The notes beneath the pieces were generated by a model, which was given only the letters and a program-made list of their open reading frames with translations, made no database searches and was not told the DNA's origin. The position numbers were made by a program, and so were the translations under genes. Below are positions 14,538-37,702 of a stretch of 64,000 nucleotides of DNA, piece after piece. Numbering within the stretch: position 1 is the stretch's first letter; the number at the start of each line of letters is the position of its first letter. The DNA is from Flavobacteriales bacterium (GTDB taxonomy: Bacteria > Bacteroidota > Bacteroidia > CAIKAF01): NCBI GenBank assembly GCA_022402535.1, contig JAKRSD010000026.1, positions 1 through 64,000 of the forward strand, given 5' to 3'.

Positions 14538-17500
14538 TTATCGAACAATCAACCTAAGATTTACCGTCTCGTTTTGGACATTTACTTCTATAATATAAAT
14601 TCCGGGTTTCAGCCCTAAATTTTTGGCAGACAGGGTAACCGGAGTTTCAGAAATAGTGGATTTTTCAAACAATACCTTACCATGCATATCTGTGATTCTA
14701 ATCCGGTCTATGGGTGCTGAGTCAGACGTTACTAATGTAAATAAATCTTCGGATGGATTGGGTTGCAATCCCAATAGAGAAATATTGTTTTCTGAAATAC
14801 CGACATTAAGCGTCAACGAAAGTGTCAATGTCTCCGTGCCGCATTCGTTAGTGAGTACTACGGTTACGGTGTAATTTCCGTTACCGGAATACGTATGTTC
14901 AGGTGCATTATCTGAAGATGTGTTTCCATCTCCAAAATCCCAGGCGGCAGTATAAGGCGAAGAAATTCCGCTCACCGAGAAGTTGTAGGTAAATCCGTTT
15001 TGATTTGAAACGATGCTTCCGCCGGATGGAGGAGAAATGATATTCAGATTAACGATTGTAGAAGCCGTGGTCAGATTTTGCGAAGTACAGGTTACCAGAC
15101 ATCGGAAGAAAGCGTGTGTTCCGGCCGTAGCATTATAATCGCTGTTGTTGGCTCCGTTAATATCGGTAAATGTATTTCCATCTGTAGATTGTTGCCATTG
15201 GTATTCATAGAATACAGCCTGAGCGGCGTCCAATCCCGTGAGCGAAAGGGTAAAATCATCGCCCGTGCATAAGTCGGTTGAAATGGCTTGTGCTGTGGCC
15301 TGGTCAGGAGCCCCTTCGCAGCCCACAGTAATCAACAGGGTTGCCGTGTCCGATCCGCAGGCATTGGTGGCTGTGGCAGTAACGGTAAATGTACCGCCCG
15401 CCGCATACGTGTATGAGGGAGAACTTCCCATCCCGAATGCTCCGTTCCCAAAATTCCAAAATACAGAACTTGCATTTTGCAGTCCGTTTGCCGTAAACTG
15501 ATATTCGCCACCATTATGTGTTTCAGAGATAGAACCGATAACGGGTACAGGTATAAAATTCACGGAAATGATATTAGAAAACGCGCTTTGTCCACTGAGG
15601 GTACATGTCACTTCACAGCGGAAGAATGTGGTTTCACTGATATTGGTGGTATACGGAGATAAATCAGCCCCCGGAATATCATTAAAATTCACCCCGTCTG
15701 TGGAGGATTGCCACTGAAGAGAAAGCGTAGGTGAAATCAACGGATTCAGCCCCGTTATCTGTAGGGTGAAATCTTGCCCTAGACACACAGATTGTGCATT
15801 TGACGATATGGTTCCTCCGCTCGGAGTACCTTCACATCCGATAAAAATAGGCAGAGAGGCCGTGTCAGCCCCGCATGCATTGGTCACGATTAGCGTTACC
15901 GTATAAGCGCCGCCGGTAGTGTATGTATGCGTGGGTGAAGGAAGGGTAGATGTATTACCGTTTCCAAAGTTCCACGAGTATCCGGTAACGTTTTGAACGC
16001 CATTAGCGGTGAAGGTATATTGTCCCAGCGTATGTGTTTCGGAAATGGATGCAACGGAAGGCAATGGCGTTATAGAAACCAATACCTGCCCGGAGGTATC
16101 AGACAGCCCGCTTGCGCTGCAGGTAACAATACAGGCAAAGTATGTGGGCTGGGTTATGCTTGTGGAAAAAGTTTGGTTTGTGTCTCCGGGTGAAACGGTG
16201 AAATTGACACCATTCAACGAGGTAATCCACTGAAAAGAAAGGGATGGAACTTCACCGATACTGAGTCCGGAAAGAGAAAGAGATACATTTCCCCCACTGC
16301 ATACAGATGTGGCTCCTGCTACGGCATTACCAGGGTTTGGTGTTCCTGAGCATCCAAACACGATAGGAATGGCCTCATCTGCTCCCCGGTAGGCGGCAGC
16401 ACTTCTGGGTTCCTGGTCTATGTCGGTAAGCACATCGGGTAAAAGAGGCGCAAGCAATGCCGCATTTCCGATAGAAGCTCCGGTAAGATGCAGGTCAGTG
16501 AGTGATACAAAGTTCACCACGGCATCGTTTGAATTCACTTCGTTTCCGGGGGCTCTCACAGCCTGATATGGCGCAAACGTGGTGTATAAATCGGTTCCCC
16601 AGCGGATCATGAATCCGGGAGGACCATTGTATGTGTTATAATCCATGTTCATGGTGCCGGAAATATTGGTGGCTGCCATGGCAATATGTTGCAGTCCGGC
16701 TGTACCTCCGGTTCTTTCATTTACAAAGAGGTTATTTTCTATTTCAAATATGTTAGAAACATTGGAAGCCGTACGATAAAAAGCTGCCGAGCCCACGGCT
16801 CCTGCCGAACCTCCCGAATTTAAAACACCGCCTATTCGTACACTGTTATGAACCACTCTTCCCGATGTGGGATTAGAACCTGTATATTCTATGCCGATGA
16901 GTGTGGTATTCACCCCGTTTCCTGAAGTCAGGGACACGAAATTGTTATAAATAATCGAATGATTCACCCCAGAAACGGAACGGATATTAATGGCTTTCAC
17001 CGTTCCTGTACTGAATAAGTCATAAATCCGGTTATTACGTATAATCGTAGTATCTGTCTGCCCGTCATACAAAATTCCGAAAGCCCCCTGACCTGTTGTG
17101 GTGGTGTTGTAAATAGAACAGGAATCTATGGTCAGCTTACCCGTTCCGGCCTGACTCCATATAGCCACAAATATTACATTGGTGAATTCACACCCGAAAA
17201 TCACATTATTCCGGTTCGGATTAGCTGACGTCCCGCTTGAATTAAGCAAGTATCTGCCTGACAAGAACTTGCAATATTCTACCAGGTTGTCCGAATTGCC
17301 CGTCGGGTTTGCTGCCGATGTGCCGAAAAACAGCCCCCTTCCTGCACTGCCTGTTGTAGAATTTAAAAAGGTACAGTAACGGAGTTGATTAAAGCTTGCT
17401 CCATTGGTTAATGTAACCGTATTTGAACTGCTGGTTGTGCCCAGATTACTGAATGTAAGTTGGCCTACATTACCTGTTCCTCCCGGTCTTCCATCCAAAA

Positions 17501-17858
17501 TAACATAATCGGCATCGTTCAAATTTAAAACGGCTCCACCCGGCTGACTTGCCTGTACCAATATGGAAGCTGCCCCGGCTGCCGGTCTCAGTGTGATCGT
17601 ATTGGCAGCACTTGCCCCCGTTTTTGCCACAAAAGTGATGGGATAAGTTTCAGAAGCGCCCGTATAGGTGTTTTCAATTTCTATGATGTAAGCCTGGGAG
17701 AGCGTGGCCGGTATGGCACCGTATGCTTCTCCGATGGAAGCATGCGACGAAATGAGCACTCCGCCTCCGTCTTTCAGGTTTACGGAGTTCGTTTGCGCTT
17801 TGGAATGCAAACAAAATGCAAAAAGTAGAATTGTCGGCAAGAAGTAAAAATTTTTCAT
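14538..17858 (-). CDS. Giant T9SS protein: beta-helix plus PKD and Ig-like repeats
   Basis: A 1106-residue secreted protein. A signal peptide ends near residue 21. Residues about 30-490 form a right-handed parallel beta-helix (many N-rich rungs), closed by a DIDQEPRS...YRGADE segment. Next come alternating Ig-like modules (each opening with GC-G-P and a FQW/LQWQSS-DG motif) and three PKD modules with WxFGNG/WDFGDGNTS. The last 75 residues are a T9SS sorting domain. It shares module types with the three tandem genes at 26294-37702 but in a different order. Likely an adhesin or surface structural protein; no enzyme signature. Confidence 0.88.
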   Translation of the reverse strand: MKNFYFLPTILLFAFCLHSKAQTNSVNLKDGGGVLISSHASIGEAYGAIPATLSQAYIIEIENTYTGASETYPITFVAKTGASAANTITLRPAAGAASILVQASQPGGAVLNLNDADYVILDGRPGGTGNVGQLTFSNLGTTSSSNTVTLTNGASFNQLRYCTFLNSTTGSAGRGLFFGTSAANPTGNSDNLVEYCKFLSGRYLLNSSGTSANPNRNNVIFGCEFTNVIFVAIWSQAGTGKLTIDSCSIYNTTTTGQGAFGILYDGQTDTTIIRNNRIYDLFSTGTVKAINIRSVSGVNHSIIYNNFVSLTSGNGVNTTLIGIEYTGSNPTSGRVVHNSVRIGGVLNSGGSAGAVGSAAFYRTASNVSNIFEIENNLFVNERTGGTAGLQHIAMAATNISGTMNMDYNTYNGPPGFMIRWGTDLYTTFAPYQAVRAPGNEVNSNDAVVNFVSLTDLHLTGASIGNAALLAPLLPDVLTDIDQEPRSAAAYRGADEAIPIVFGCSGTPNPGNAVAGATSVCSGGNVSLSLSGLSIGEVPSLSFQWITSLNGVNFTVSPGDTNQTFSTSITQPTYFACIVTCSASGLSDTSGQVLVSITPLPSVASISETHTLGQYTFTANGVQNVTGYSWNFGNGNTSTLPSPTHTYTTGGAYTVTLIVTNACGADTASLPIFIGCEGTPSGGTISSNAQSVCLGQDFTLQITGLNPLISPTLSLQWQSSTDGVNFNDIPGADLSPYTTNISETTFFRCEVTCTLSGQSAFSNIISVNFIPVPVIGSISETHNGGEYQFTANGLQNASSVFWNFGNGAFGMGSSPSYTYAAGGTFTVTATATNACGSDTATLLITVGCEGAPDQATAQAISTDLCTGDDFTLSLTGLDAAQAVFYEYQWQQSTDGNTFTDINGANNSDYNATAGTHAFFRCLVTCTSQNLTTASTIVNLNIISPPSGGSIVSNQNGFTYNFSVSGISSPYTAAWDFGDGNTSSDNAPEHTYSGNGNYTVTVVLTNECGTETLTLSLTLNVGISENNISLLGLQPNPSEDLFTLVTSDSAPIDRIRITDMHGKVLFEKSTISETPVTLSAKNLGLKPGIYIIEVNVQNETVNLRLIVR

Positions 17859-23496: not shown

Positions 23497-23574
23497 AAAA
23501 CAGACTGTTGAAAAAATCCATTAGGATAATTTCTGTTTTTGACTAAATTGTTGCCCAAATTAATGACAAAAAAA

Positions 23575-24594
23575 ATGGCAAAAGACGAAAAATCGGCAAA
23601 ATTAGAGGCGTTAAAGCTCACATTAGATAAGCTGGACAAAACATACGGTAAGGGAACCATTATGCGCTTGGGCGATAATGCCGTGGAAACCATGGAAGTA
23701 ATTCCTTCAGGCTCACTTTCGTTAGACTTGGCTTTAGGGGTGAATGGTTATCCGCGCGGCAGGGTCATTGAAATATATGGTCCGGAGTCTTCAGGTAAAA
23801 CCACATTAACCATACACGCGATAGCCGAAGCCCAAAAACAGGGAGGCATTGCCGCATTCATTGATGCAGAGCATGCTTTCGACCGTTTTTATGCCGAAAA
23901 ATTAGGGGTTGACACCGAAAATCTCTTGATTTCGCAACCCGATAATGGCGAACAGGCTTTAGAAATTGCCGATAATCTGATTCGTTCAGGGGCTATTGAT
24001 ATTATTGTAATTGACTCCGTGGCGGCTTTGGTTCCCAAAAGCGAACTGGAAGGTGAAATGGGGGATTCTAAAATGGGGCTACATGCAAGGCTCATGTCTC
24101 AGGCCATGCGTAAACTAACGGCATCCATCAGCCGTACCAACTGTACCTGCATTTTTATCAACCAGCTGCGCGAAAAAATCGGAGTTATGTTCGGTAATCC
24201 CGAAACCACTACGGGCGGAAATGCCTTGAAATATTATGCTTCTATTCGAGTGGACATTCGCAGAACCGGTCAGATCAAAGAAGGAGATGAAATCGTGGGT
24301 AACCGCATTAAAGTAAAAGTGGTGAAAAACAAGGTGGCACCTCCTTTCCGTCAGGCAGAGTTTGATATTATGTACGGACAGGGAATATCCAAAACCGGTG
24401 AAATCATCGACATGGCCACCGATTTGAATATTGTGAAAAAATCGGGTTCATGGTTCAGCTACGGAGAAACAAAACTCGGTCAGGGGCGTGATTCAGTAAA
24501 AGCCTTGTTAGCCGATAACCCTGAATTGGCTGAAGAACTTGAACAAAAAGTGAAAGAAGCCGTATATGCCAATGCGGCGGCTAAGAAAAAATAA
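23575..24594 (+). CDS. recA: Recombinase RecA
   Basis: A 339-residue RecA from the ATG at 23575 ([20 protein letters not shown]); in-frame ATG 23563 and TTG 23541-region starts are possible but extend beyond the usual family start. Walker [10 protein letters not shown] lies near residues 69-77, and the L2 loop region [20 protein letters not shown] is intact. It drives homologous recombination, which matters here because the tandem genes at 26294-37702 show signs of gene conversion. The stop TAA is followed directly by the next ATG. Confidence 0.97.
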
Positions 24595-26293: not shown

Positions 26294-29200
26294 ATGAGAT
26301 TAAAGATTTACAAAACGCAAGGTCTGCGAAAAGTGACCATGTTGTTTTCTGCAATCCTTTCTTTCACAATGGGGTATAGTCAGTATTGTACTCCTGTGAT
26401 GAATTGCGGTTCAGCAGACTTGATTAACAACTTCAGTACAACTGGAGGAGTGGCAAACATTTCCAATCTAAACTCGGGTTGTAGTGGTGGTTATATTTAT
26501 TATGCCGCGCAAACCGTATCACAAAATCCGGGTCAGAACGTGAATATTTCGGTTCAGTCAGGTCCTTCTTGGGGTCAAGGCTTCCGAATTTGGGTGGATT
26601 GGAATCAAAATGGAAGTTTTGCAGATCCGGGTGAGGATGTGTGGAATTCAGGTGGTTCGGGTACAGGAGTTTATAACGGTGTAATTGCGGTGCCTGTAAC
26701 GGCTATTCCCGGTACAACACGTATGAGAGTTATGGCTCAGTATGCTACGGTGCCTCTCTCCGGTGATTTTTGTCAGAATTTTTCCAATTTTGGAGAGGTT
26801 GAGGATTATAACTTTCAAGTTATTCCTACAGCACCTTGTTCAGGAGTTCCCAATGGAGGTACAGCAACTGCTTCAGTTTCTACGGTTTGTCCCGGGGTGT
26901 CTTTTTCAATTACATCAGCCGGGGTAAGTTTTGGTGCTGGAACCGAATACCAATGGCAATCTTCTCCTGATGGGTTTACTTGGACAAATATTGCCGGCCA
27001 AACAGGAGCGGGCTTCTCAGGTACTCAGTCTGCGGCTACAAATTACCGTCTTCGTGTTATTTGTACAAGTGGTCCGGATACCGCATACTCCAACAGTGTT
27101 CTTGTTGACCTGACTCCTTTCTTAAATTGCTACTGTACCTCAGGAGCTACCAGTACATTTGATTCAAACGTACATGGAGTAGAATTCGGAACTATCAATA
27201 ATATTACAGGTGCTGCCTGTGGCACATATTCTGATTTTACTTCAATTCAGACAAACATTTTCAAAGGACTGAGCTACCCAATAACTATTACTGCAGGTTC
27301 GTGTGGAGGTGCTTATACTCGTTACGGTAAAGTATACATAGATTATAACCACAACGGATTATTTACCGATCCGGGCGAAGAAGTGTTTTCATTCGGTCCC
27401 ACAAATGCAGGTCAGGTTGTTCAGCCATTCAATGGAAGCGTTACAATTCCTGTTACTGCTGCTGACGGTTTAACCCGTATGCGTGTTATTGTAAATGAGA
27501 CATTTGCATTGACAAATGTTAATCCATGCGGAACATTTACCTGGGGCGAAACTGAAGATTATTATGTAAATATCTTACCTCCACCTGCCGATGAGGCCGG
27601 TGTGTTGGCCATTACCACTCCCGGCATCGCTGCTTGTAATTTAGGTCAGGAAATCTGGGTTGAATTGCAGAATCTGGGAACCAACGATCTTACTTCCGCT
27701 ACATTTACGGTGGCCGTTAACGGATTTAACATTCCTGTTTCTCCATGGACTGGATTGGTTCCTGCCGGTACGTCTGCAGAAGTACAGGTGCCTGTAACTT
27801 ACGTTCTTGCCGATGGCGACAGTGTGAGTGTAACCGTTTCCGATCCAAACGGAGTAACGGAAAATGCGCTATTTTTATTCAACAACCAGACAGGCCGCCG
27901 TATCTGGGCCGGTTTATCGGGTGTGAAAACCGTTTACGGAGCCGGTGCGGATTTCGTGGATATGGATGAAGCCATTGATGCATTAGTGTTCCGCGGGGTA
28001 TGCGATACAGTGTATTTCCAGATAGCTACAGGAAACTATACTTCACAACATGTAATGACCCAGTATCCTGGTGCGGGTCCCGGCCGTCTGGCCGTGTTTG
28101 AATCGGCTTCGGGCAATGCGTCTGATGTAACCTTTACCCATTCTGCTTTAGCCGCTGCTGATAATTATGTATTCCGTTTCAATAACGGAGACGGGTACAT
28201 GTTCAGAAACCTGACCGGTATCGCTACGGGAACCGCATTCTCTAAAGTAATTGATATCCTTGGCGGTTCATCGGATTTAACGTTTGAAAACAACGTATTT
28301 GTTGGAGATACCTTAGCTCCGTACAACATGGGCGACTTTGAAAGAATCGTGATTGCTTCTACCGGAGCCAGCAACGATAACCGCACGGTTCTCCGCAACA
28401 ACCATATCATGGGCGGTAACCGCGGTCTGAATTTGGGTGGTGCCACCGGATTATATGAAACCGGTAACGTGGTGGAAGGCAACGTGATTGAAAAATATGC
28501 TGCCATCGGTGGTATTTTTGGCAACTTATCAGGTTACCAGGTAAACAACAACGTATTCCGTCCGCGTACCGACCTTACGCAGGAAGCCTTCGGGGTGTAT
28601 GCGGTAGGAACTATTGACGGAGCTGGCATTTCAGCCAACGATTACCTGTCATACCGTCCGGGTTCAGCTATTTTCCTTTCCAATGTAAAAGGTGGTGGTA
28701 ATGAAGTATTGGTATCCAATAACTTTATTTTCTCAGGCGACTCAGGGGTTGCTACTTTAGCACGTGGTGTTTTAATCCAGGATGTTAATTCATCTGATGT
28801 TATTTTGGCCAATAATAGTATCGCATTTTATAACAAAAACCCACAAAGCGGTGCAATTACCGTGGTTGATGGTTCACAGATTCGTTTCTACAACAATAAC
28901 GTAGGAGCATTCGGAACGGCTCCCGCAGCCCGTATCGAAAAATCATACAGCGTAGCCGCTTCCAACCACAACAATATGTTTGGAACCAATCTGGCTAATG
29001 TATTGGGTACAGTTTATACTTCATTGACCAACTTCCAGTCTGTTACAGGATTTGATGCCAACTCGGTAAGCGTTAATCCCGGTTTCAACGGAACCGATTT
29101 ACATACCTGCGCACCCGAACTGAACGGTGCAGCCATGCCAATGGCTTCCGTAGCGGTTGACTTTGATGGAGATGCCCGTTCTACGACTCCTGACATTGGT

Positions 29201-29923
29201 GCCGATGAGTTTGTGGGCGATGCCAACGGATTACTGGCCGCCGATTACTTTGAAAAATGTCCTTCAGTAGAAGTAACTCTGGGAGGTGCGCCTTTAAATG
29301 GGGTAACTTACAGCTGGACTCCTTCAGGTAATACCTCTGAAATTACGGTAACTGCTGCCGGTACTTATGTGGTAACGGCTACTTCTGCCTGTGGTTCATT
29401 CAGCGATACGGCCGTGGTGGTAAACAATCCGTTGCCAACAGCAAGCTTCACAACTTCTACGGTAGGACTGGCTTCCATCTTTACCAATACCTCCACCAAC
29501 GGTACTTCATACCTATGGGATTTTGGTGATGGAAATACATCCACAGAGTTTAGTCCTTCACACGTTTACACAACGGCAGGAACTTATTCAGCAACATTGA
29601 CTGTTACCAACGAATGTGGTTCAGCAACATTTGGACCTCAGCCTGTAAACGTAATCAATGCCGGCATCGAAGAAAACGATATGGCTTCTGTAGCCCTGTT
29701 CCCGAATCCTACTTCGGGCCAGTTTACGGTGACTCTGAACAACATCAGCAGCGAAACGGTATTGACTGTGATTGATGTTACAGGTAAAGCCGTAATGGTT
29801 AAAAACGTACCTGCTGGCGTAAATCAGATTACCTTGGATGCCACCCAATTTGCATCGGGTGTTTATTCAGTAAAAGTAAGCAGCGGAGACTTTAACAAAG
29901 TAATCCGTTTGGTACGCAAATAA
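26294..29923 (+). CDS. Tandem T9SS surface protein 1 (two GEVED, beta-helix, PKD)
   Basis: A 1209-residue protein. The signal peptide ends near residue 29 (GYSQ). The unique N-terminal module (about 31-175) is itself a GEVED domain ending in GEVEDYNFQV. An Ig-like module follows (WQSSPDGFTW), then a second GEVED domain to about 425 (GETEDYYVNI), a CARDB-like domain (about 435-530), a right-handed beta-helix (about 545-960) closed by TPDIGADEF, a PKD domain near 1050-1110 (WDFGDGNTS) and a T9SS type A sorting domain (FPNPTSGQF ... GVYSVKV). No enzyme motif is visible. Likely a surface adhesin or fibre protein. It has its own terminator. Confidence 0.9.
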   Translation: MRLKIYKTQGLRKVTMLFSAILSFTMGYSQYCTPVMNCGSADLINNFSTTGGVANISNLNSGCSGGYIYYAAQTVSQNPGQNVNISVQSGPSWGQGFRIWVDWNQNGSFADPGEDVWNSGGSGTGVYNGVIAVPVTAIPGTTRMRVMAQYATVPLSGDFCQNFSNFGEVEDYNFQVIPTAPCSGVPNGGTATASVSTVCPGVSFSITSAGVSFGAGTEYQWQSSPDGFTWTNIAGQTGAGFSGTQSAATNYRLRVICTSGPDTAYSNSVLVDLTPFLNCYCTSGATSTFDSNVHGVEFGTINNITGAACGTYSDFTSIQTNIFKGLSYPITITAGSCGGAYTRYGKVYIDYNHNGLFTDPGEEVFSFGPTNAGQVVQPFNGSVTIPVTAADGLTRMRVIVNETFALTNVNPCGTFTWGETEDYYVNILPPPADEAGVLAITTPGIAACNLGQEIWVELQNLGTNDLTSATFTVAVNGFNIPVSPWTGLVPAGTSAEVQVPVTYVLADGDSVSVTVSDPNGVTENALFLFNNQTGRRIWAGLSGVKTVYGAGADFVDMDEAIDALVFRGVCDTVYFQIATGNYTSQHVMTQYPGAGPGRLAVFESASGNASDVTFTHSALAAADNYVFRFNNGDGYMFRNLTGIATGTAFSKVIDILGGSSDLTFENNVFVGDTLAPYNMGDFERIVIASTGASNDNRTVLRNNHIMGGNRGLNLGGATGLYETGNVVEGNVIEKYAAIGGIFGNLSGYQVNNNVFRPRTDLTQEAFGVYAVGTIDGAGISANDYLSYRPGSAIFLSNVKGGGNEVLVSNNFIFSGDSGVATLARGVLIQDVNSSDVILANNSIAFYNKNPQSGAITVVDGSQIRFYNNNVGAFGTAPAARIEKSYSVAASNHNNMFGTNLANVLGTVYTSLTNFQSVTGFDANSVSVNPGFNGTDLHTCAPELNGAAMPMASVAVDFDGDARSTTPDIGADEFVGDANGLLAADYFEKCPSVEVTLGGAPLNGVTYSWTPSGNTSEITVTAAGTYVVTATSACGSFSDTAVVVNNPLPTASFTTSTVGLASIFTNTSTNGTSYLWDFGDGNTSTEFSPSHVYTTAGTYSATLTVTNECGSATFGPQPVNVINAGIEENDMASVALFPNPTSGQFTVTLNNISSETVLTVIDVTGKAVMVKNVPAGVNQITLDATQFASGVYSVKVSSGDFNKVIRLVRK
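27827..27985. repeat. 159-bp block identical to 31627-31785
   Basis: Base-for-base identical between tandem genes 1 and 2 across the junction of CARDB-like domain and beta-helix. The same stretch of gene 3 differs at many third-codon positions. Interpreted as a recent gene-conversion tract. Confidence 0.85.
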
Positions 29924-29943
29924 ATTAGCAGAACGATTTTGCG

Positions 29944-29978
29944 AAAGGGCATTCTCATTGAGAATGCCCTTTTTTTTG
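29944..29978 (+). terminator. Rho-independent terminator, tandem gene 1
   Basis: Stem GGGCATTCTCA / TGAGAATGCCC with a short loop, followed by eight T. It lies 20 bases after the stop. Confidence 0.92.
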
Positions 29979-30010
29979 TTAACAAAACTTAATTGAATCG
30001 AAATTTCGTT

Positions 30011-30018
30011 TTAATTTG
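30011..30018 (+). promoter_or_regulatory. Candidate -7 box TTAATTTG, tandem gene 2
   Basis: One mismatch to TAnnTTTG, 21 bases before the ATG of the second tandem gene and downstream of the first gene's terminator. Confidence 0.5.
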
Positions 30019-30039
30019 TTGTCATAAAATAATTTAATT

Positions 30040-33000
30040 ATGAAATCAATTCTATCATTTCATTGGGTTAAGATTAAGCTATTGTTATTGTCTTTTTGCC
30101 TAGTTAATGCATCAAAGGCTCAGATAACCATCGCTACAAATCACATTAACAACAACGGAAACGGGTCAGTTACATTTAATGTGCAAAACACAAATGCATT
30201 TGACATAATAATAACTGGTGTTTCCGCTCATTTAGGTACCAGTGCCAATAATCAAATACAGTTGCTTTATCGCACATCGGCCATTAACGATTTGGCAACA
30301 CCTTGGGATTATGGTACAGTAGGTGCGGGTCAAAACGGTTGGGTTTTAGCAGGAACGGGTACCGTAAATTCAAATGTGGCAAATGGTGTTGTGCCTGTAT
30401 TATCAGGCTTAAATTTGGTTATTCCAGCAGGAGCCACGTACACTTTGGGGCTTAGTGCCACCACGCTTCAGTATATGACATTAACCAATGGTAATGGAGC
30501 CAATGTAAATACATTTTCAAATGCAGGCGTGAACTTGATAACAGGGGATGGTGTCAGCTGGGGAGGCACAGCATATCCTTCTACGCCTGCCAACTACCCC
30601 AGAGGATTTGCAGGTAGTATAACCTTTATACCCGCTTTGCCATGTTCAGGGGCACCTTCAGCAGGAACTATTACGGCTACAGCATCGAGTGTTTGCCCTT
30701 CGGTGAACTTTACGATTAATAACACCGGGGCAACATTTGGAACAGGAACCTTGTATCAGTGGCAGTCTTCACCGGACGGATTTTCTTGGAATGATGTTGC
30801 CGGACAAAATCAACCTACTTTTAATGGTTCCCAAACCACAGCACTCAACTACCGTTTGCGTGTAATTTGTTCTTCGGGTCCTGATACCGCGTATTCCAAT
30901 TCGGTATTTGTTGATATGAACCCTTTCTTTAACTGTTATTGTGCTTCTGGGGCAACAAGTACTGCAGATTCAAATATTGATCGGGTTGAATTTGGAACCA
31001 TAAATAATTTGACAGGAGCCGCCTGTGCAACGTATTCAGATTTTACTTCTATTCAGACAAATCTATTTAAAGGGTTGAGTTATCCAATTACGATTACTGC
31101 AGGAACCTGTGGAGGGAACTTTACAAGAAACGGTAAAGTATACATAGATTATAATCACAACGGGTTATTTACGGATCCGGGAGAAGAAGTTTTTGCTTTC
31201 GGGCCTACCAATCAGGCCGTTCAAGCTTTTAATGGAACCGTAACTATTCCAGTAACCGCTACTGACGGAGTAACCCGTATGCGGGTAGTTGTAGTAGAAA
31301 CTGGATTATTGGCAAATGTAAATCCATGCGGAACATACACCTGGGGAGAAACAGAGGATTATTTAGTAAATATCTTGCCTCCGCCTGCCGATGAGGCCGG
31401 TGTATTGGCCATTACTACTCCCGGTGTTGCAGCCTGTACCTTAGGTCAGGAAATCTGGGTCGAATTGCAGAATTTAGGAACTAACGATCTGACTTCCGCT
31501 ACATTTACCGTGGCCGTTAACGGGTTTAACATCCCCACCCAGCCCTGGACAGGATTGGTTCCTGCCGGTACGTCTGCAGAAGTTCAGGTGCCTGTAACTT
31601 ACGTTCTTGCCGATGGCGACAGTGTAAGTGTAACCGTTTCCGATCCAAACGGAGTAACGGAAAATGCGCTATTTTTATTCAACAACCAGACAGGCCGCCG
31701 TATCTGGGCCGGTTTATCGGGTGTGAAAACCGTTTACGGAGCCGGTGCGGATTTCGTGGATATGGATGAAGCCATTGATGCATTACTGTTCCGCGGGGTC
31801 TGCGATACGGTGTATTTCCAGATAGCCACAGGAAACTATACATCACAACATATACTGACCCAGTATCCGGGTGCGGGTCCCGGCCGTCTGGCCGTATTTG
31901 AATCGGCTTCGGGCAACGCGTCGGATGTGAGCTTTACCCATTCCGCCCTGGCTGCGGGTGATAACTTCGTATTCCGTTTCAATAACGGCGACGGGTACAT
32001 GTTCAGAAACCTGACGGCTAGAGCCACGGGTACCGCATTCTCTAAAGTAATTGACATTCTTGGCGGTTCATCAGATCTGACGTTTGAAAACAACGTGTTT
32101 GTTGGAGATACCTTAGCTCCGTACAACATGAGTGATTTTGAAAGAATCGTGATTGCTTCTACAGGAGCCAGCAACGATAACCGCACGGTTCTCCGCAACA
32201 ACCATATCATGGGCGGTAACCGCGGTCTGAATTTGGGCGGAGCCACCGGATTATATGAAACCGGTAACGTGGTGGAAGGCAACGTGATTGAAAAGTATGC
32301 TGCTATCGGCGGTATTTTTGGTAACTTATCAGGTTATCAGGTAAAAAACAATGTATTCCGTCCGCGTACCGACCTTACCCAGGATGCTTTCGGGGTTTAT
32401 GCTGTGGGTACAATCAGTGGAGCTGATATTGCAGGTAATGATTATTTGTCATACCGCCCTGGTTCTGGGATTTTCCTTTCTAATGTAAAAGGAAGTGCTG
32501 TGAATGAAGCTATTGTTTCCAACAACTTTATTTTCTCGGGAGATTCTGGAGTTACAACTTTAGCCCGCGGTATATTCATTCAAGATGTAAACACAGCGGG
32601 TATTACTCTTGCTAACAATAGTATTTCTTTTAATAATAATAATCCGTTAAGTGGAGCCATCACAGTAGTAGACGGTACCCAAATTTATTTTTACAACAAC
32701 AACGTAGGGGCATTCGGCACGGCTCCCGCAGCCCGTATCGAAAAATCATACAGTGTTGCTGCTTCCAACCACAACAATATGTTCGGAACCAATCTGGCCA
32801 ATGTATTGGGTACGGTATACACCTCACTGGCCAACTTCCAGTCTGCTACTGGATTTGATGCCAACTCGGTAAGTGTAAATCCCGGTTTCAACGGAACCGA
32901 TTTACATACCTGCGCACCCGAACTTAACGGGGCAGCCCTTTCATTGGCTTCTGTAACGGTTGACTTTGACGGTGATGCCCGTTCTGCGACTCCGGATATC

Positions 33001-33726
33001 GGTGCCGATGAGTTTGTGGGCGATGCCAACGGATTACTCGCTGCTGATTACTTTGAAAAATGTCCTTCGGTAGCCGTTACGTTAGGTAATGCTCCTCAAA
33101 GTGGAGTAACTTACAGCTGGACTCCTGCAGGAAGTACCTCTGAAATTACGGTAACTGACGCAGGCACCTATGTGGTAACGGCTACATCTGCCTGTGGTTC
33201 ATTCAGCGATACAGTTGTGGTGGTAAACAACCCATTGCCTACGGCAAGCTTTACATCAACATCTGTGGGTCTGGCTTCCATCTTTACCAACACTTCTACC
33301 AACGGTACATCGTATCTGTGGGATTTTGGTGACGGAAACACTTCCACTGAGTTCAGCCCGACACATGTATACTCATCAGCGGGTGTTTATTCGGCTAACT
33401 TAACGGTAACCAACGAATGTGGTTCAGCTACATTTGGTCCGCAGCCTGTAAACGTAATCAATGCCGGCATCGAAGAAAACGATATGGCTTCCGTATCTCT
33501 TTTCCCGAATCCAACTTCGGGTCAGTTTACGGTAACCCTGAACAACATCAGCAGCGAAACGGTACTTACCGTGATTGATGTGACAGGAAAAGCGGTATTG
33601 GTTAAAAACGTACCTGCGGGTGTAAACCAGATTACATTAGACGCCACTTCTTTTGCATCGGGCGTATACTCGGTGAAAATAAGCAGCGGAGACTTTAACA
33701 AAGTAATCCGACTGGTGCGCAAGTAA
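30040..33726 (+). CDS. Tandem T9SS surface protein 2
   Basis: A 1228-residue protein. The signal peptide ends near residue 28 (NASKAQ). Residues about 29-205 form a beta-rich module unlike the N-termini of its two neighbours (ITIATNHINNNGNGSVTFNV). From the PCSG...WQSSPDGFSW Ig-like module onward it is collinear with protein 1: GEVED (GETEDYLVNI), CARDB-like, beta-helix, TPDIGADEF, PKD and T9SS sorting domain. The body is closest to protein 1 in the CARDB/helix region and closest to protein 3 near the C-terminus, a mosaic. Confidence 0.9.
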   Translation: MKSILSFHWVKIKLLLLSFCLVNASKAQITIATNHINNNGNGSVTFNVQNTNAFDIIITGVSAHLGTSANNQIQLLYRTSAINDLATPWDYGTVGAGQNGWVLAGTGTVNSNVANGVVPVLSGLNLVIPAGATYTLGLSATTLQYMTLTNGNGANVNTFSNAGVNLITGDGVSWGGTAYPSTPANYPRGFAGSITFIPALPCSGAPSAGTITATASSVCPSVNFTINNTGATFGTGTLYQWQSSPDGFSWNDVAGQNQPTFNGSQTTALNYRLRVICSSGPDTAYSNSVFVDMNPFFNCYCASGATSTADSNIDRVEFGTINNLTGAACATYSDFTSIQTNLFKGLSYPITITAGTCGGNFTRNGKVYIDYNHNGLFTDPGEEVFAFGPTNQAVQAFNGTVTIPVTATDGVTRMRVVVVETGLLANVNPCGTYTWGETEDYLVNILPPPADEAGVLAITTPGVAACTLGQEIWVELQNLGTNDLTSATFTVAVNGFNIPTQPWTGLVPAGTSAEVQVPVTYVLADGDSVSVTVSDPNGVTENALFLFNNQTGRRIWAGLSGVKTVYGAGADFVDMDEAIDALLFRGVCDTVYFQIATGNYTSQHILTQYPGAGPGRLAVFESASGNASDVSFTHSALAAGDNFVFRFNNGDGYMFRNLTARATGTAFSKVIDILGGSSDLTFENNVFVGDTLAPYNMSDFERIVIASTGASNDNRTVLRNNHIMGGNRGLNLGGATGLYETGNVVEGNVIEKYAAIGGIFGNLSGYQVKNNVFRPRTDLTQDAFGVYAVGTISGADIAGNDYLSYRPGSGIFLSNVKGSAVNEAIVSNNFIFSGDSGVTTLARGIFIQDVNTAGITLANNSISFNNNNPLSGAITVVDGTQIYFYNNNVGAFGTAPAARIEKSYSVAASNHNNMFGTNLANVLGTVYTSLANFQSATGFDANSVSVNPGFNGTDLHTCAPELNGAALSLASVTVDFDGDARSATPDIGADEFVGDANGLLAADYFEKCPSVAVTLGNAPQSGVTYSWTPAGSTSEITVTDAGTYVVTATSACGSFSDTVVVVNNPLPTASFTSTSVGLASIFTNTSTNGTSYLWDFGDGNTSTEFSPTHVYSSAGVYSANLTVTNECGSATFGPQPVNVINAGIEENDMASVSLFPNPTSGQFTVTLNNISSETVLTVIDVTGKAVLVKNVPAGVNQITLDATSFASGVYSVKISSGDFNKVIRLVRK
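32836..33161. repeat. 326-bp block identical to 36812-37137
   Basis: Base-for-base identical between tandem genes 2 and 3 across the end of the beta-helix and the start of the PKD linker. Gene 1 differs at many positions here. Flanking sequence immediately upstream diverges between genes 2 and 3, so the tract has a sharp edge. Confidence 0.88.
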
Positions 33727-33742
33727 TTTTATCATAATATTG

Positions 33743-33774
33743 AAAAGGCTGCATGAACAATGCAGCCTTTTTTT
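33743..33774 (+). terminator. Rho-independent terminator, tandem gene 2
   Basis: Stem AAAAGGCTGCAT / ATGCAGCCTTTT with a 5-base loop and a run of T. Its stem sequence is unrelated to the terminators of the other two tandem genes. Confidence 0.92.
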
Positions 33775-33808
33775 ATGTTAATAATTTTAAAAAAAAGTAA
33801 AATCAGCG

Positions 33809-33816
33809 TAAGTTTG
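33809..33816 (+). promoter_or_regulatory. Candidate -7 box TAAGTTTG, tandem gene 3
   Basis: Perfect TAnnTTTG, 19 bases before the ATG of the third tandem gene. Confidence 0.6.
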
Positions 33817-33835
33817 ACGCCTAAATTTTCAGTTT

Positions 33836-36800
33836 ATGAATCATACAATTACAAAAAATCAGATATTTAAAAATCTGAAACCTTTATTCGAAACAGGGGG
33901 AGTTTCAAATAAAGCGTACAAATTTTATTTCTCAATTTTTGCGTTTTTATTACTAATTATCTCTAAATCAAGTGCACAAAGTTATAACTTGACTTTTGCG
34001 GCTAATTCAGGTAACCCAGCTCCGGGTTATGTCACTACGGATATTAGTACAACAGGGACAATAGTTATTGATCAAAGTCTTTCTGCAAATGTTTGGTCAT
34101 CGGTACAAACGCTTCCGTTTCCTTTTACTTTTTACGGCGTACCGGTTACCCAGTATAAAGTAAGTGCAAATGGAGTATTGACTTTTGATGTAGCTTCAGC
34201 AATACTTCCTGCAGGAAACGTAAGTATTCCAACGCCTAATTTACCCGATTTGAGCATTGCATTTATGTGGGATGAGTTTACCGCTGCACCTCCCACCGCT
34301 ACGGGTGACCGTGCCTATGCAAATACTTACGGAACAGCACCTAACAGACAACATTGGGTTTGGTACTTTTCCTATGAAATAGGTAATCCGCAATATTCCT
34401 TTGCCTACTGGGCAGTAGTGTTGGAAGAGTCTACAAATAATATATATGTTATCGATCAATACTCTATAGCGGGAACAAGTGGAACCACAGTTGGTGTTCA
34501 GTTAAACTCTACTACCGGTATTCAGGATCCCTTGTCACCTAATATTGCCCGTCAGGGAAATGGTACTACGCTGGCAGATAATGATGTTTGGACGTTTCAG
34601 TATTTGACGGCTCCTTGTAATGGAGTGCCTGCTATCGGAACAGCAACCGGTCCTGCAACAGGATGTCCATCTTCAAATTTCACAGTAACAGTAACCGGAA
34701 CTACGCCTTCCGTAGGCCTTACTTATCAGTGGCAATCATCACCAGATGGATTTTCTTGGACCGATATTCCGGGGGCCACAAGTACTTCTTATGCAGGAAC
34801 TATAACTGCCCCTCTGAATTATAGAAGGATGGATATCTGTACAAATACGTCAGACACCTCTTATTCAACACCTCACTTTATTGATGTCAGTCCATTTTTC
34901 AATTGTTATTGTACTTCTGGGGCCACTTCAACTACTTATGGTTACATTAAACGTGTTGAACTTAATACAATTAACAATATATCACCTACTGGCTGTGGAC
35001 AGCAATACACTGATAATACTTCGATTCAGACAAATCTTTTTGAAGGATTATCGTATAACATTTCTCTGGATATCGAAAACTGTTCAGCAGGAACGTATAA
35101 TTATGGTACCCGGGTTTGGATTGATTTTAATCAAAACGGAATTTTTGATGCTACGGAATTGGTTTATAATGGTAATCCTTCTGTTACTGCCGGTGTTACC
35201 ACTACGGTAAACGGAACCGTTACTATACCGGTGGGTTCTCCAAACGGACTAACCCGCATGCGTGTGGTAACCATTGAATCTAATGCAAACCCTAATCCAT
35301 GCGGAACATTCACCTGGGGCGAAACAGAAGATTATCTGGTAAATATTCTTCCTCCTCCTGCTAATGAAGCAGGCGTTTTGGCAATTTCTAAACCTGAATT
35401 AGCTGCTTGTGCTTTGGGCCAGGAAATTTGGGTGGAAATGCAAAATTTGGGAACCAATGATTTAACTTCTGCAACGTTTACCGTAACGGTTAATGGTTTT
35501 AATATTCCTACTCAGCCATGGACTGGACTGGTACCTGCCCAGAGTACTGCAGAAGTACAAGTGCCGGTTACTTACGTTCTTGCTGATGGCGACAGTATAA
35601 ATGTTTCGGTTTCTAATCCTAACGGAGTCACAGAAGATACATTGTTTGCATTTAATAATCAGACAGGCCGTCGCGTATGGGCTGGACTTTCCGGAGTGAA
35701 ATCTGTTTATGGAGCCGGTGCTGATTTTGCAAATATGGATGACGCTGTAGCGGCTTTAGTTTTCCGCGGAGTTTGTGATACGGTAAATTTCCAGATTCCT
35801 AATGGAGATTATGCTTCCAATCATGTATTTGAAGAATATCCCGGTGCCGGACCAGGTCGTTTGGCCGTATTTGAGTCTGCATCTGGTAATGCTTCAGATG
35901 TAATATTCCGTCACTCTGCTATTGCTGCTGCTGATAACTATGTATTCCGTTTTGACGGTGGTGACGGGTATATGGTTCGCAACCTTACGGGTATAGCCGA
36001 GGGAACTGCATTTTCAAAAGTGGTTGATATTCTTAACGGTGCAGATGATTTAACATTTGAAAGCAATGTTTTTGTTGGTGATACAGTTTCAGCTTATAAT
36101 GCATCCGATTTCAATAGAATCGTTATTGCGTCTTCAACCGGTACAGGATCTACCGATTTACGAACAGTAATCCGCGATAATCATATTATCGGAGGTAACC
36201 GGGGTATTAATCTTGGTGCCGCTACAGGCTCATTTGAATTTGGAACCGTGATAGAAGGTAACCTATTTGAAAATTACGGTCATATTGGAGTTATTCTAGG
36301 CGGCCAACAAGGATCTGTCATTAAAAACAATGTTTTCCGCCCCAAATCAAGCTTTACTCAGGATGCTTTTGGTCCTTATCTCAATGGATGTGTCGGTGGC
36401 GGAGAAATTTCAGGTAATGACTACCTCTCTAATCGTACAGGATCGGGAATATTCTTAACCAACGTAAAAGGAGGAGTAGAGTCATTTATAGTAACTAATA
36501 ACTTTATTAATTCTGGAGATACAAATGCTACAGGAGTTTCTAGAGGAATTTTAATTCAGGATGTAAACTCTAATGACATTTTAGTAGCCAATAATAGTAT
36601 ATCATTCCATAGTGATAATGCAACAAGTGGCGCTATCACGGTTGTGGATGGTGTGGATATCCGTTTCTACAATAATAACGTAGGCGCATTCGGCTCGGCT
36701 CCCGCAGCCCGTATCGAAAAATCATACAGTGTTATTGCTTCTGATAATAATAACATGTTCGGAACCAATCTGGCTAACGTATTAGGGTCAGTGTATACAA

Positions 36801-37702
36801 CTTTGGCGAGTTTCCAGTCTGCTACTGGATTTGATGCCAACTCGGTAAGTGTAAATCCCGGTTTCAACGGAACCGATTTACATACCTGCGCACCCGAACT
36901 TAACGGGGCAGCCCTTTCATTGGCTTCTGTAACGGTTGACTTTGACGGTGATGCCCGTTCTGCGACTCCGGATATCGGTGCCGATGAGTTTGTGGGCGAT
37001 GCCAACGGATTACTCGCTGCTGATTACTTTGAAAAATGTCCTTCGGTAGCCGTTACGTTAGGTAATGCTCCTCAAAGTGGAGTAACTTACAGCTGGACTC
37101 CTGCAGGAAGTACCTCTGAAATTACGGTAACTGACGCGGGCACCTATGTGGTCACGGCTACATCTGCCTGTGGATCATTCAGCGATACTGTAGAGGTAGT
37201 AAACAATCCATTACCTACTGCAAGTTTCACTTCTTCAACTGTAGGATTAGCTTCCATCTTTACCAACACTTCTACCAACGGTACTTCGTATCTGTGGGAT
37301 TTTGGTGACGGAAACACTTCCACTGAGTTCAGCCCGACGCATGTATACTCATCAGCGGGAGTTTATTCGGCTAACTTAACAGTAACCAACGAATGTGGTT
37401 CAGCTACATTTGGTCCGCAGCCAGTAAACGTAATCAATGCCGGCATCGAAGAAAACGATATGGCTTCCGTATCTCTTTTCCCGAATCCAACTTCGGGTCA
37501 GTTTACGGTAACCCTGAACAACATCAGCAGCGAAACGGTACTTACCGTGATTGATGTGACAGGAAAAGCGGTATTGGTTAAAAACGTACCTGCAGGTGTA
37601 AACCAGATTACATTAGACGCCACTTCTTTTGCATCGGGTGTTTATTCAGTGAAAGTAAGCAGCGGAGACTTTAACAAAGTGATCCGACTGGTGCGCAAGT
37701 AA
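33836..37702 (+). CDS. Tandem T9SS surface protein 3
   Basis: A 1288-residue protein. An unusually long N-region precedes the hydrophobic core of the signal peptide (about 31-48, ending KSSAQ). Residues about 49-260 are a third, unrelated N-terminal beta module (PFPFTFYGVPVTQYKVSANG ... WDEFTAAPP), resembling beta-sandwich domains that open other Bacteroidota surface proteins. The shared body then follows: Ig-like, GEVED, CARDB-like, beta-helix, TPDIGADEF, PKD and T9SS sorting domain. Codon choice in the middle of the gene is more AT-rich than in genes 1 and 2, while the 3' end matches gene 2 almost base for base. Confidence 0.9.
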   Translation: MNHTITKNQIFKNLKPLFETGGVSNKAYKFYFSIFAFLLLIISKSSAQSYNLTFAANSGNPAPGYVTTDISTTGTIVIDQSLSANVWSSVQTLPFPFTFYGVPVTQYKVSANGVLTFDVASAILPAGNVSIPTPNLPDLSIAFMWDEFTAAPPTATGDRAYANTYGTAPNRQHWVWYFSYEIGNPQYSFAYWAVVLEESTNNIYVIDQYSIAGTSGTTVGVQLNSTTGIQDPLSPNIARQGNGTTLADNDVWTFQYLTAPCNGVPAIGTATGPATGCPSSNFTVTVTGTTPSVGLTYQWQSSPDGFSWTDIPGATSTSYAGTITAPLNYRRMDICTNTSDTSYSTPHFIDVSPFFNCYCTSGATSTTYGYIKRVELNTINNISPTGCGQQYTDNTSIQTNLFEGLSYNISLDIENCSAGTYNYGTRVWIDFNQNGIFDATELVYNGNPSVTAGVTTTVNGTVTIPVGSPNGLTRMRVVTIESNANPNPCGTFTWGETEDYLVNILPPPANEAGVLAISKPELAACALGQEIWVEMQNLGTNDLTSATFTVTVNGFNIPTQPWTGLVPAQSTAEVQVPVTYVLADGDSINVSVSNPNGVTEDTLFAFNNQTGRRVWAGLSGVKSVYGAGADFANMDDAVAALVFRGVCDTVNFQIPNGDYASNHVFEEYPGAGPGRLAVFESASGNASDVIFRHSAIAAADNYVFRFDGGDGYMVRNLTGIAEGTAFSKVVDILNGADDLTFESNVFVGDTVSAYNASDFNRIVIASSTGTGSTDLRTVIRDNHIIGGNRGINLGAATGSFEFGTVIEGNLFENYGHIGVILGGQQGSVIKNNVFRPKSSFTQDAFGPYLNGCVGGGEISGNDYLSNRTGSGIFLTNVKGGVESFIVTNNFINSGDTNATGVSRGILIQDVNSNDILVANNSISFHSDNATSGAITVVDGVDIRFYNNNVGAFGSAPAARIEKSYSVIASDNNNMFGTNLANVLGSVYTTLASFQSATGFDANSVSVNPGFNGTDLHTCAPELNGAALSLASVTVDFDGDARSATPDIGADEFVGDANGLLAADYFEKCPSVAVTLGNAPQSGVTYSWTPAGSTSEITVTDAGTYVVTATSACGSFSDTVEVVNNPLPTASFTSSTVGLASIFTNTSTNGTSYLWDFGDGNTSTEFSPTHVYSSAGVYSANLTVTNECGSATFGPQPVNVINAGIEENDMASVSLFPNPTSGQFTVTLNNISSETVLTVIDVTGKAVLVKNVPAGVNQITLDATSFASGVYSVKVSSGDFNKVIRLVRK

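Follow-up and report, generated by a model that had tools for sequence, protein, structure and literature searches.

Gene conversion as the probable source of a mosaic in three tandem genes for modular T9SS surface proteins of a Flavobacteriales bacterium

How can neighbouring genes lie near saturation at synonymous sites and yet be identical over stretches of 159 and 326 nucleotides? The question is raised by three adjacent plus-strand genes, predicted to encode secreted surface proteins, in a 64,000-nucleotide stretch (the window) of a Bacteroidota genome. Copy 1 (nt 26294–29923, 1209 aa) is composed of a type I (GEVED) head, a body common to the three genes, PKD and a Por_Secre_tail. Copy 2 (nt 30040–33726, 1228 aa) and copy 3 (nt 33836–37702, 1288 aa), both predicted T9SS cargo, carry the common body behind a type II and a type III head, respectively. 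GEVED (PF20009), PKD and the T9SS sorting tail each exceed the Pfam cut-off in all three copies. The sorting tail PF18962 scores 45.0–46.9 bits against a cut-off of 27, and the C-terminal sorting domain TIGR04183 scores 39.9–40.5 bits against a curated cut-off of 23. By this sorting domain the three proteins are predicted to be T9SS type A cargo.

The genes are separated by gaps of 116 bp (copies 1 and 2) and 109 bp (copies 2 and 3), between which no similarity is visible. Terminator-like hairpins, both plus-strand consensus matches only, lie 3′ of copy 1 (nt 29943–29973) and of copy 2 (nt 33742–33772). Because of the dissimilar gaps and these hairpins, each copy may be a transcription unit of its own. 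Homology among the bodies reaches the stop codon on one side and the head/body junction on the other, and goes no further. Head I (nt 26294–26827, residues 1–178), head II (nt 30040–30633, residues 1–198) and head III (nt 33836–34609, residues 1–258) give no blastp match to one another at E<0.1; the GEVED part of head I resembles the GEVED domain that lies inside the bodies. Pfam finds nothing above cut-off in heads II and III. A PDB sequence search with copies 2 and 3 returned PKD-containing chains (collagenase, protease, surface-layer protein) and a T9SS tail, with one endoglucanase in addition for copy 2, and no match informative on the head or the mid body. Structure predictions of head III from a single sequence (mean pLDDT 35.8) and of the copy 2 body from three sequences (mean pLDDT 35.1) gave unusable models; a beta-helix is suspected within the body.

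Two tracts of identity had been described in an earlier note, one between copies 1 and 2 and the other between copies 2 and 3, and both were recovered to the base as the longest identical runs of their pairs. The first comprises 159 nt (nt 27827–27985 of copy 1 and nt 31627–31785 of copy 2), and its silent run spans nt 27785–27995. The second comprises 326 nt (nt 32836–33161 of copy 2 and nt 36812–37137 of copy 3). The divergence ascribed to the remaining copy is complete, since copy 3 differs at 44 of the 44 polymorphic sites in the 159-nt run and copy 1 at 41 of the 41 in the 326-nt run. The edges had also been called sharp. This does not apply to the left side of the 1/2 tract, which extends leftward (75 nt starting at nt 27755 contain 2 differences), nor to the right side of the 2/3 tract, which fades (75 nt starting at nt 33124 contain 3 differences) before a diverged patch is reached.

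The mosaic is richer than these two tracts, and more and shorter ones are present. A second 1/2 tract (nt 28364–28435, equal to nt 32164–32235) holds 26 consecutive agreeing polymorphic sites (P=0.0002) and sits inside a stretch of low divergence at nt 28280–28573; a further significant tract of the same pair lies at nt 28444–28487 (P=0.007). Similarly, the diverged patch at nt 33199–33273, with 17 mismatches to copy 3 in its 75 nt, separates the 326-nt tract from a second homogenised 2/3 stretch at nt 33274–33660. The latter has a synonymous divergence (dS) of 0.07 and contains significant runs at nt 33312–33361 and nt 33492–33598; another significant 2/3 tract occupies nt 33621–33651.

Chance agreement was assessed by a GENECONV-style permutation with 5000 shuffles of the 1030 polymorphic sites found in 3084 ungapped body columns, for which 0.0002 is the lowest possible P. 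This value was obtained for pairs 1/2 and 2/3, both with all sites and with the 374 silent codons alone. The longest agreeing runs of 44 sites (1/2) and 41 sites (2/3) compare with shuffle maxima of 22 and 9, and the silent-codon runs of 26 and 22 with maxima of 14 and 11. Copies 1 and 3 have no comparable tract by the same permutation (longest run 4 sites, P=0.32). The identity extends to synonymous sites, as had been claimed: silent codons of copies 1 and 2 agree at 21 of 21 positions inside the tract versus 128 of 353 outside (Fisher p=1.6e-9), and those of copies 2 and 3 at 22 of 23 versus 100 of 351 (Fisher p=8e-11). A constraint at the nucleotide level, such as codon use or RNA structure, could in principle keep tracts alike with no recombination, and the protein is indeed well conserved in them. 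However, the third copy differs at every site of the runs (44 and 41), silent ones included, by which this explanation is refuted and its probability reduced to next to nothing.

An assembly artefact is a further rival: reads of one copy might have filled another, as 326 nt may be longer than a short read and the genome is assembled in 32 contigs. Against this, each of the three frames is unbroken and has flanks of its own, the tracts end in strongly diverged sequence, and isolated single differences are retained, such as the one at nt 27826, which separates a 41-nt run from the 159-nt run. Such single-base differences beside identical tracts argue against smoothing by the assembler, and an artefact is very unlikely.

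Synonymous divergence was then followed along the bodies in segments, and the course is not uniform: values that are near saturation in much of the remaining body drop to 0.07 (1/2) and 0.01 (2/3) inside the tracts. In copies 1 and 2, dS runs 1.40 (nt 26819–27742), 0.07, 0.49, 0.20, saturated (nt 28574–28870), 0.60, 0.44, 0.78, 0.80 and 1.28, and in copies 2 and 3 it runs 2.70, 1.42, 2.75, 1.96, saturated, 1.17, 0.01, 0.91, 0.07 and 0.43. Between copies 1 and 3 it is 1.1–2.4 or saturated up to the 2/3 tract, where copy 3 assumes the value of copy 2, 0.44. Since dS is near saturation in much of the bodies and low in islands, the copies are of old origin, and homogenisation came afterwards, patch by patch; values of intermediate size point to layered events that differ in age. 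A recent triplication is ruled out by the saturated synonymous sites between the tracts.

The earlier proposal of conversion in a tandem array, with the middle copy exchanging with both neighbours, agrees with these profiles, in that dS falls only in pairs 1/2 and 2/3 and does so between diverged flanks. In the restriction to adjacent pairs, proximity and similarity are inseparable, because two sharing pairs are set against one without, and copies 1 and 3 are also the most diverged. Alternatively, a chimeric middle copy could have been produced in one step by unequal crossover during expansion or contraction of the array. Tandem direct repeats are known to promote such crossover, and copy 2 does resemble copy 1 in the mid body and copy 3 at the 3′ end. 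Nevertheless, a single duplication starting from two genes would leave a middle gene that resembles the downstream gene in its 5′ part and the upstream gene in its 3′ part, and copy 2 shows the reverse. Deletion from a longer array would fit the polarity, yet it predicts one step change rather than separated islands of near-zero dS. Because of the reverse polarity and the island-like similarity, conversion is preferred and crossover appears very unlikely.

Ectopic gene conversion of the RecA type in an old tandem array of modular T9SS surface proteins is thus very probably the best explanation. Each of the three exported proteins would combine an individual N-terminal head, a module that probably binds a ligand or a surface, with the common GEVED/PKD body and the common secretion signal. 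The bodies would first have diverged until their synonymous sites were nearly saturated, and short patches would later have been copied to a neighbour through homologous recombination between the paralogues, in the mid body for copies 1 and 2 and in the 3′ third for copies 2 and 3. Dependence on RecA is presumed. An intact recA (nt 23539–24594, Pfam RecA 1.5e-139) is located in the window, 1.7 kb upstream of the array, probably by coincidence. As to direction, copy 2 is weakly favoured as the donor in the 2/3 tract, because the tract lies at a distance of 0.44 from copy 1, closer to the left-flank value of pair 1/2 (0.60) than to that of pair 1/3 (1.08). A clean clade of copies 2 and 3 is absent from the protein tree built on the 3′ part, which is probably due to the mixing of converted and unconverted parts in that stretch. 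Trees of such surface proteins combine different histories.

The relatives of the array show how heads and bodies are associated elsewhere. The hits place the array genome in Bacteroidota, and no further genome of its genus occurred in a set of 60. The family sample comprised 16 genomes, 12 of them with a body match at 1e-30. Adjacent copies occur in 6 of the 16, the array genome included; the other five (G004, G008, G010, G011 and G013) have two each. The second G008 copy (L062:6610-10330) is split into two frames of 771 and 407 aa, a broken gene or an assembly error. Five types can be distinguished among the 17 heads: I (8, with copy 1), II (3, with copy 2), III (copy 3 only), IV (2) and V (3). 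Paralogous bodies within the relatives diverge more than copies 1–3, and heads cross-match between genomes. G010_b and G008_b pair as sister bodies in both half trees (support 100), and almost every 25-residue window in their first half shows 52–96% identity, yet G010_b carries head I and G008_b head II; the next outward, G004_b, carries head II. Because the sister bodies have unlike heads and G004_b also has head II, the simplest reading of the sequences would be that the G010 lineage had its head replaced, with the rest of the protein remaining orthologous. Identity between head I of copy 1 and the G010_b head is 60%; over the whole proteins, head included, it is 40%, with most body windows at 24–60%. 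Since relatives carry at least five head types, one of them apparently swapped on an orthologous body, the heads apparently behave as exchangeable modules.

Heads II and III were also found on other proteins at E<=1e-6, in 12 and 81, respectively, of 198 genomes of the class (own genome counted). The best five loci outside the own genome were inspected for each head, all of at most 3.6 kb. For head II, all five have some body-like part, on the GEVED side or in the later body. For head III, a match to the later body is present in L118, whereas the other four loci lack body similarity apart from a single short, weak match. Head III, which has no Pfam match, is a putative exported module without a Pfam family; many of its relatives lie on ORFs of about 690–720 aa. 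Other parts vary as well. The GEVED stretch of G013_a (L061:3160-6789) is 16–40% identical per window to that of G011_a, versus mostly 68–100% elsewhere, and looks like a module swap. The sorting tails of G010_a (L059:7514-11011) and G008_a (L062:3043-6552) are about 33% identical on bodies at mostly 70–95%, an apparent swap.

With heads that seem to move between genomes, it can be asked whether the tracts too were acquired from arrays of other strains by natural transformation rather than by exchange within the chromosome, as homologous replacement would yield a like mosaic. The tracts match the neighbouring copy of their own genome, however, which is the simplest donor, and an outside origin is accordingly quite improbable. 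Under conversion between neighbours, the heads of the array have stayed dissimilar even as portions of the shared body were homogenised repeatedly, and the third copy serves as a control at every position, so that tract length, direction and GC bias become measurable inside one bacterial genome.

The third of these was approached through third-position GC (GC3), which averages 0.448 over the 29 ORFs of the window. GC3 is 0.37–0.56 where a pair is homogenised versus 0.22–0.35 in saturated stretches. Copy 3 has 0.26–0.29 opposite the 1/2 tracts and 0.38–0.45 within the 2/3 tracts, and the non-participating copy keeps a low GC3 at the same position. The rank correlation of GC3 with silent difference is −0.69 for copies 1 and 2 and −0.51 for copies 1 and 3 (0 of 33 circular shifts as low in either case), and a nonsignificant −0.24 for copies 2 and 3 (5 of 33). 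In 12 chosen control pairs among the relatives, correlations range from −0.31 to +0.43 and none is significantly negative by the correlation test, although for the pair G014-G015 1 of 33 shifts is as low. A comparable step of GC3 along the body is absent in the relatives, except that G011_b and G013_b are GC3-richer near the 3′ end. Lassalle et al. describe recombinant genes as higher in GC in 11 of the 14 bacterial groups of their account (PMC4450053). That conversion in the array is GC-biased, raising third-position GC upon homogenisation, is rather unlikely on our assessment. The independent tracts are few, and because GC3 also tracks amino-acid identity (0.77 for copies 1 and 2), the rise may stem from codon selection or from a donor richer in GC. 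If the bias is true, many such arrays would provide a within-genome, same-position test of the disputed GC-biased gene conversion of bacteria.

The process is known in kind, and the array is a clear and unusually clean new example of it; no earlier report of this array was found among the papers listed for gene conversion, Bacteroidetes and type IX secretion, or for gene conversion, tandem Flavobacterium adhesins and gliding. Cassette antigenic variation, such as that of pilE and vlsE, also works by copying between related surface-protein genes, and the array is alike in this respect. Cassette systems, however, have one expression locus and silent incomplete donors, whereas the array consists of three complete frames with starts, the first two followed by terminator-like hairpins; silent partial cassettes were not seen, and such a system is not what these sequences suggest.

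The closest parallels found, so far as the cited accounts go, are three. In Porphyromonas gingivalis, the modular adhesin domains of Kgp, RgpA and HagA are described as rearranged and exchanged, and the authors invoke gene conversion (PMC5266723). These too are Bacteroidota T9SS surface proteins with modular parts, but in that account whole repeated adhesin domains are involved in separate genes, in contrast to sub-domain patches in three adjacent genes with unlike N-terminal heads; the likeness is one of organisation and not a claimed homology of families. HMW1A and HMW2A of Haemophilus influenzae are likewise two surface adhesins, paralogues that diverge in the binding region (PMC4849778, PMC8262952). 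As described there, they belong to dispersed operons with phase-variable promoters and secretion partners of their own, whereas the array is tandem and T9SS-dependent by prediction, and its observed conversion lies in the body instead of the head. CshA/B-like fibrillar adhesins share GEVED (PF20009) with the array, and their adhesive heads are reported to be shuffled onto many stalks across phyla (PMC10952558). The array differs from this description in its anchor, a T9SS sorting domain, and in that neither the whole proteins nor the heads gave a Pfam match to CshA NR2, the adhesive domain that precedes GEVED there, a search that a distant relative could escape.

No gene neighbourhood was found in common with the relatives when 17 flank genes of the window were compared with ten loci of at most 15 kb each. 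Elsewhere in the window, the minus strand encodes another T9SS protein (nt 14538–17858) with three PKD stretches.
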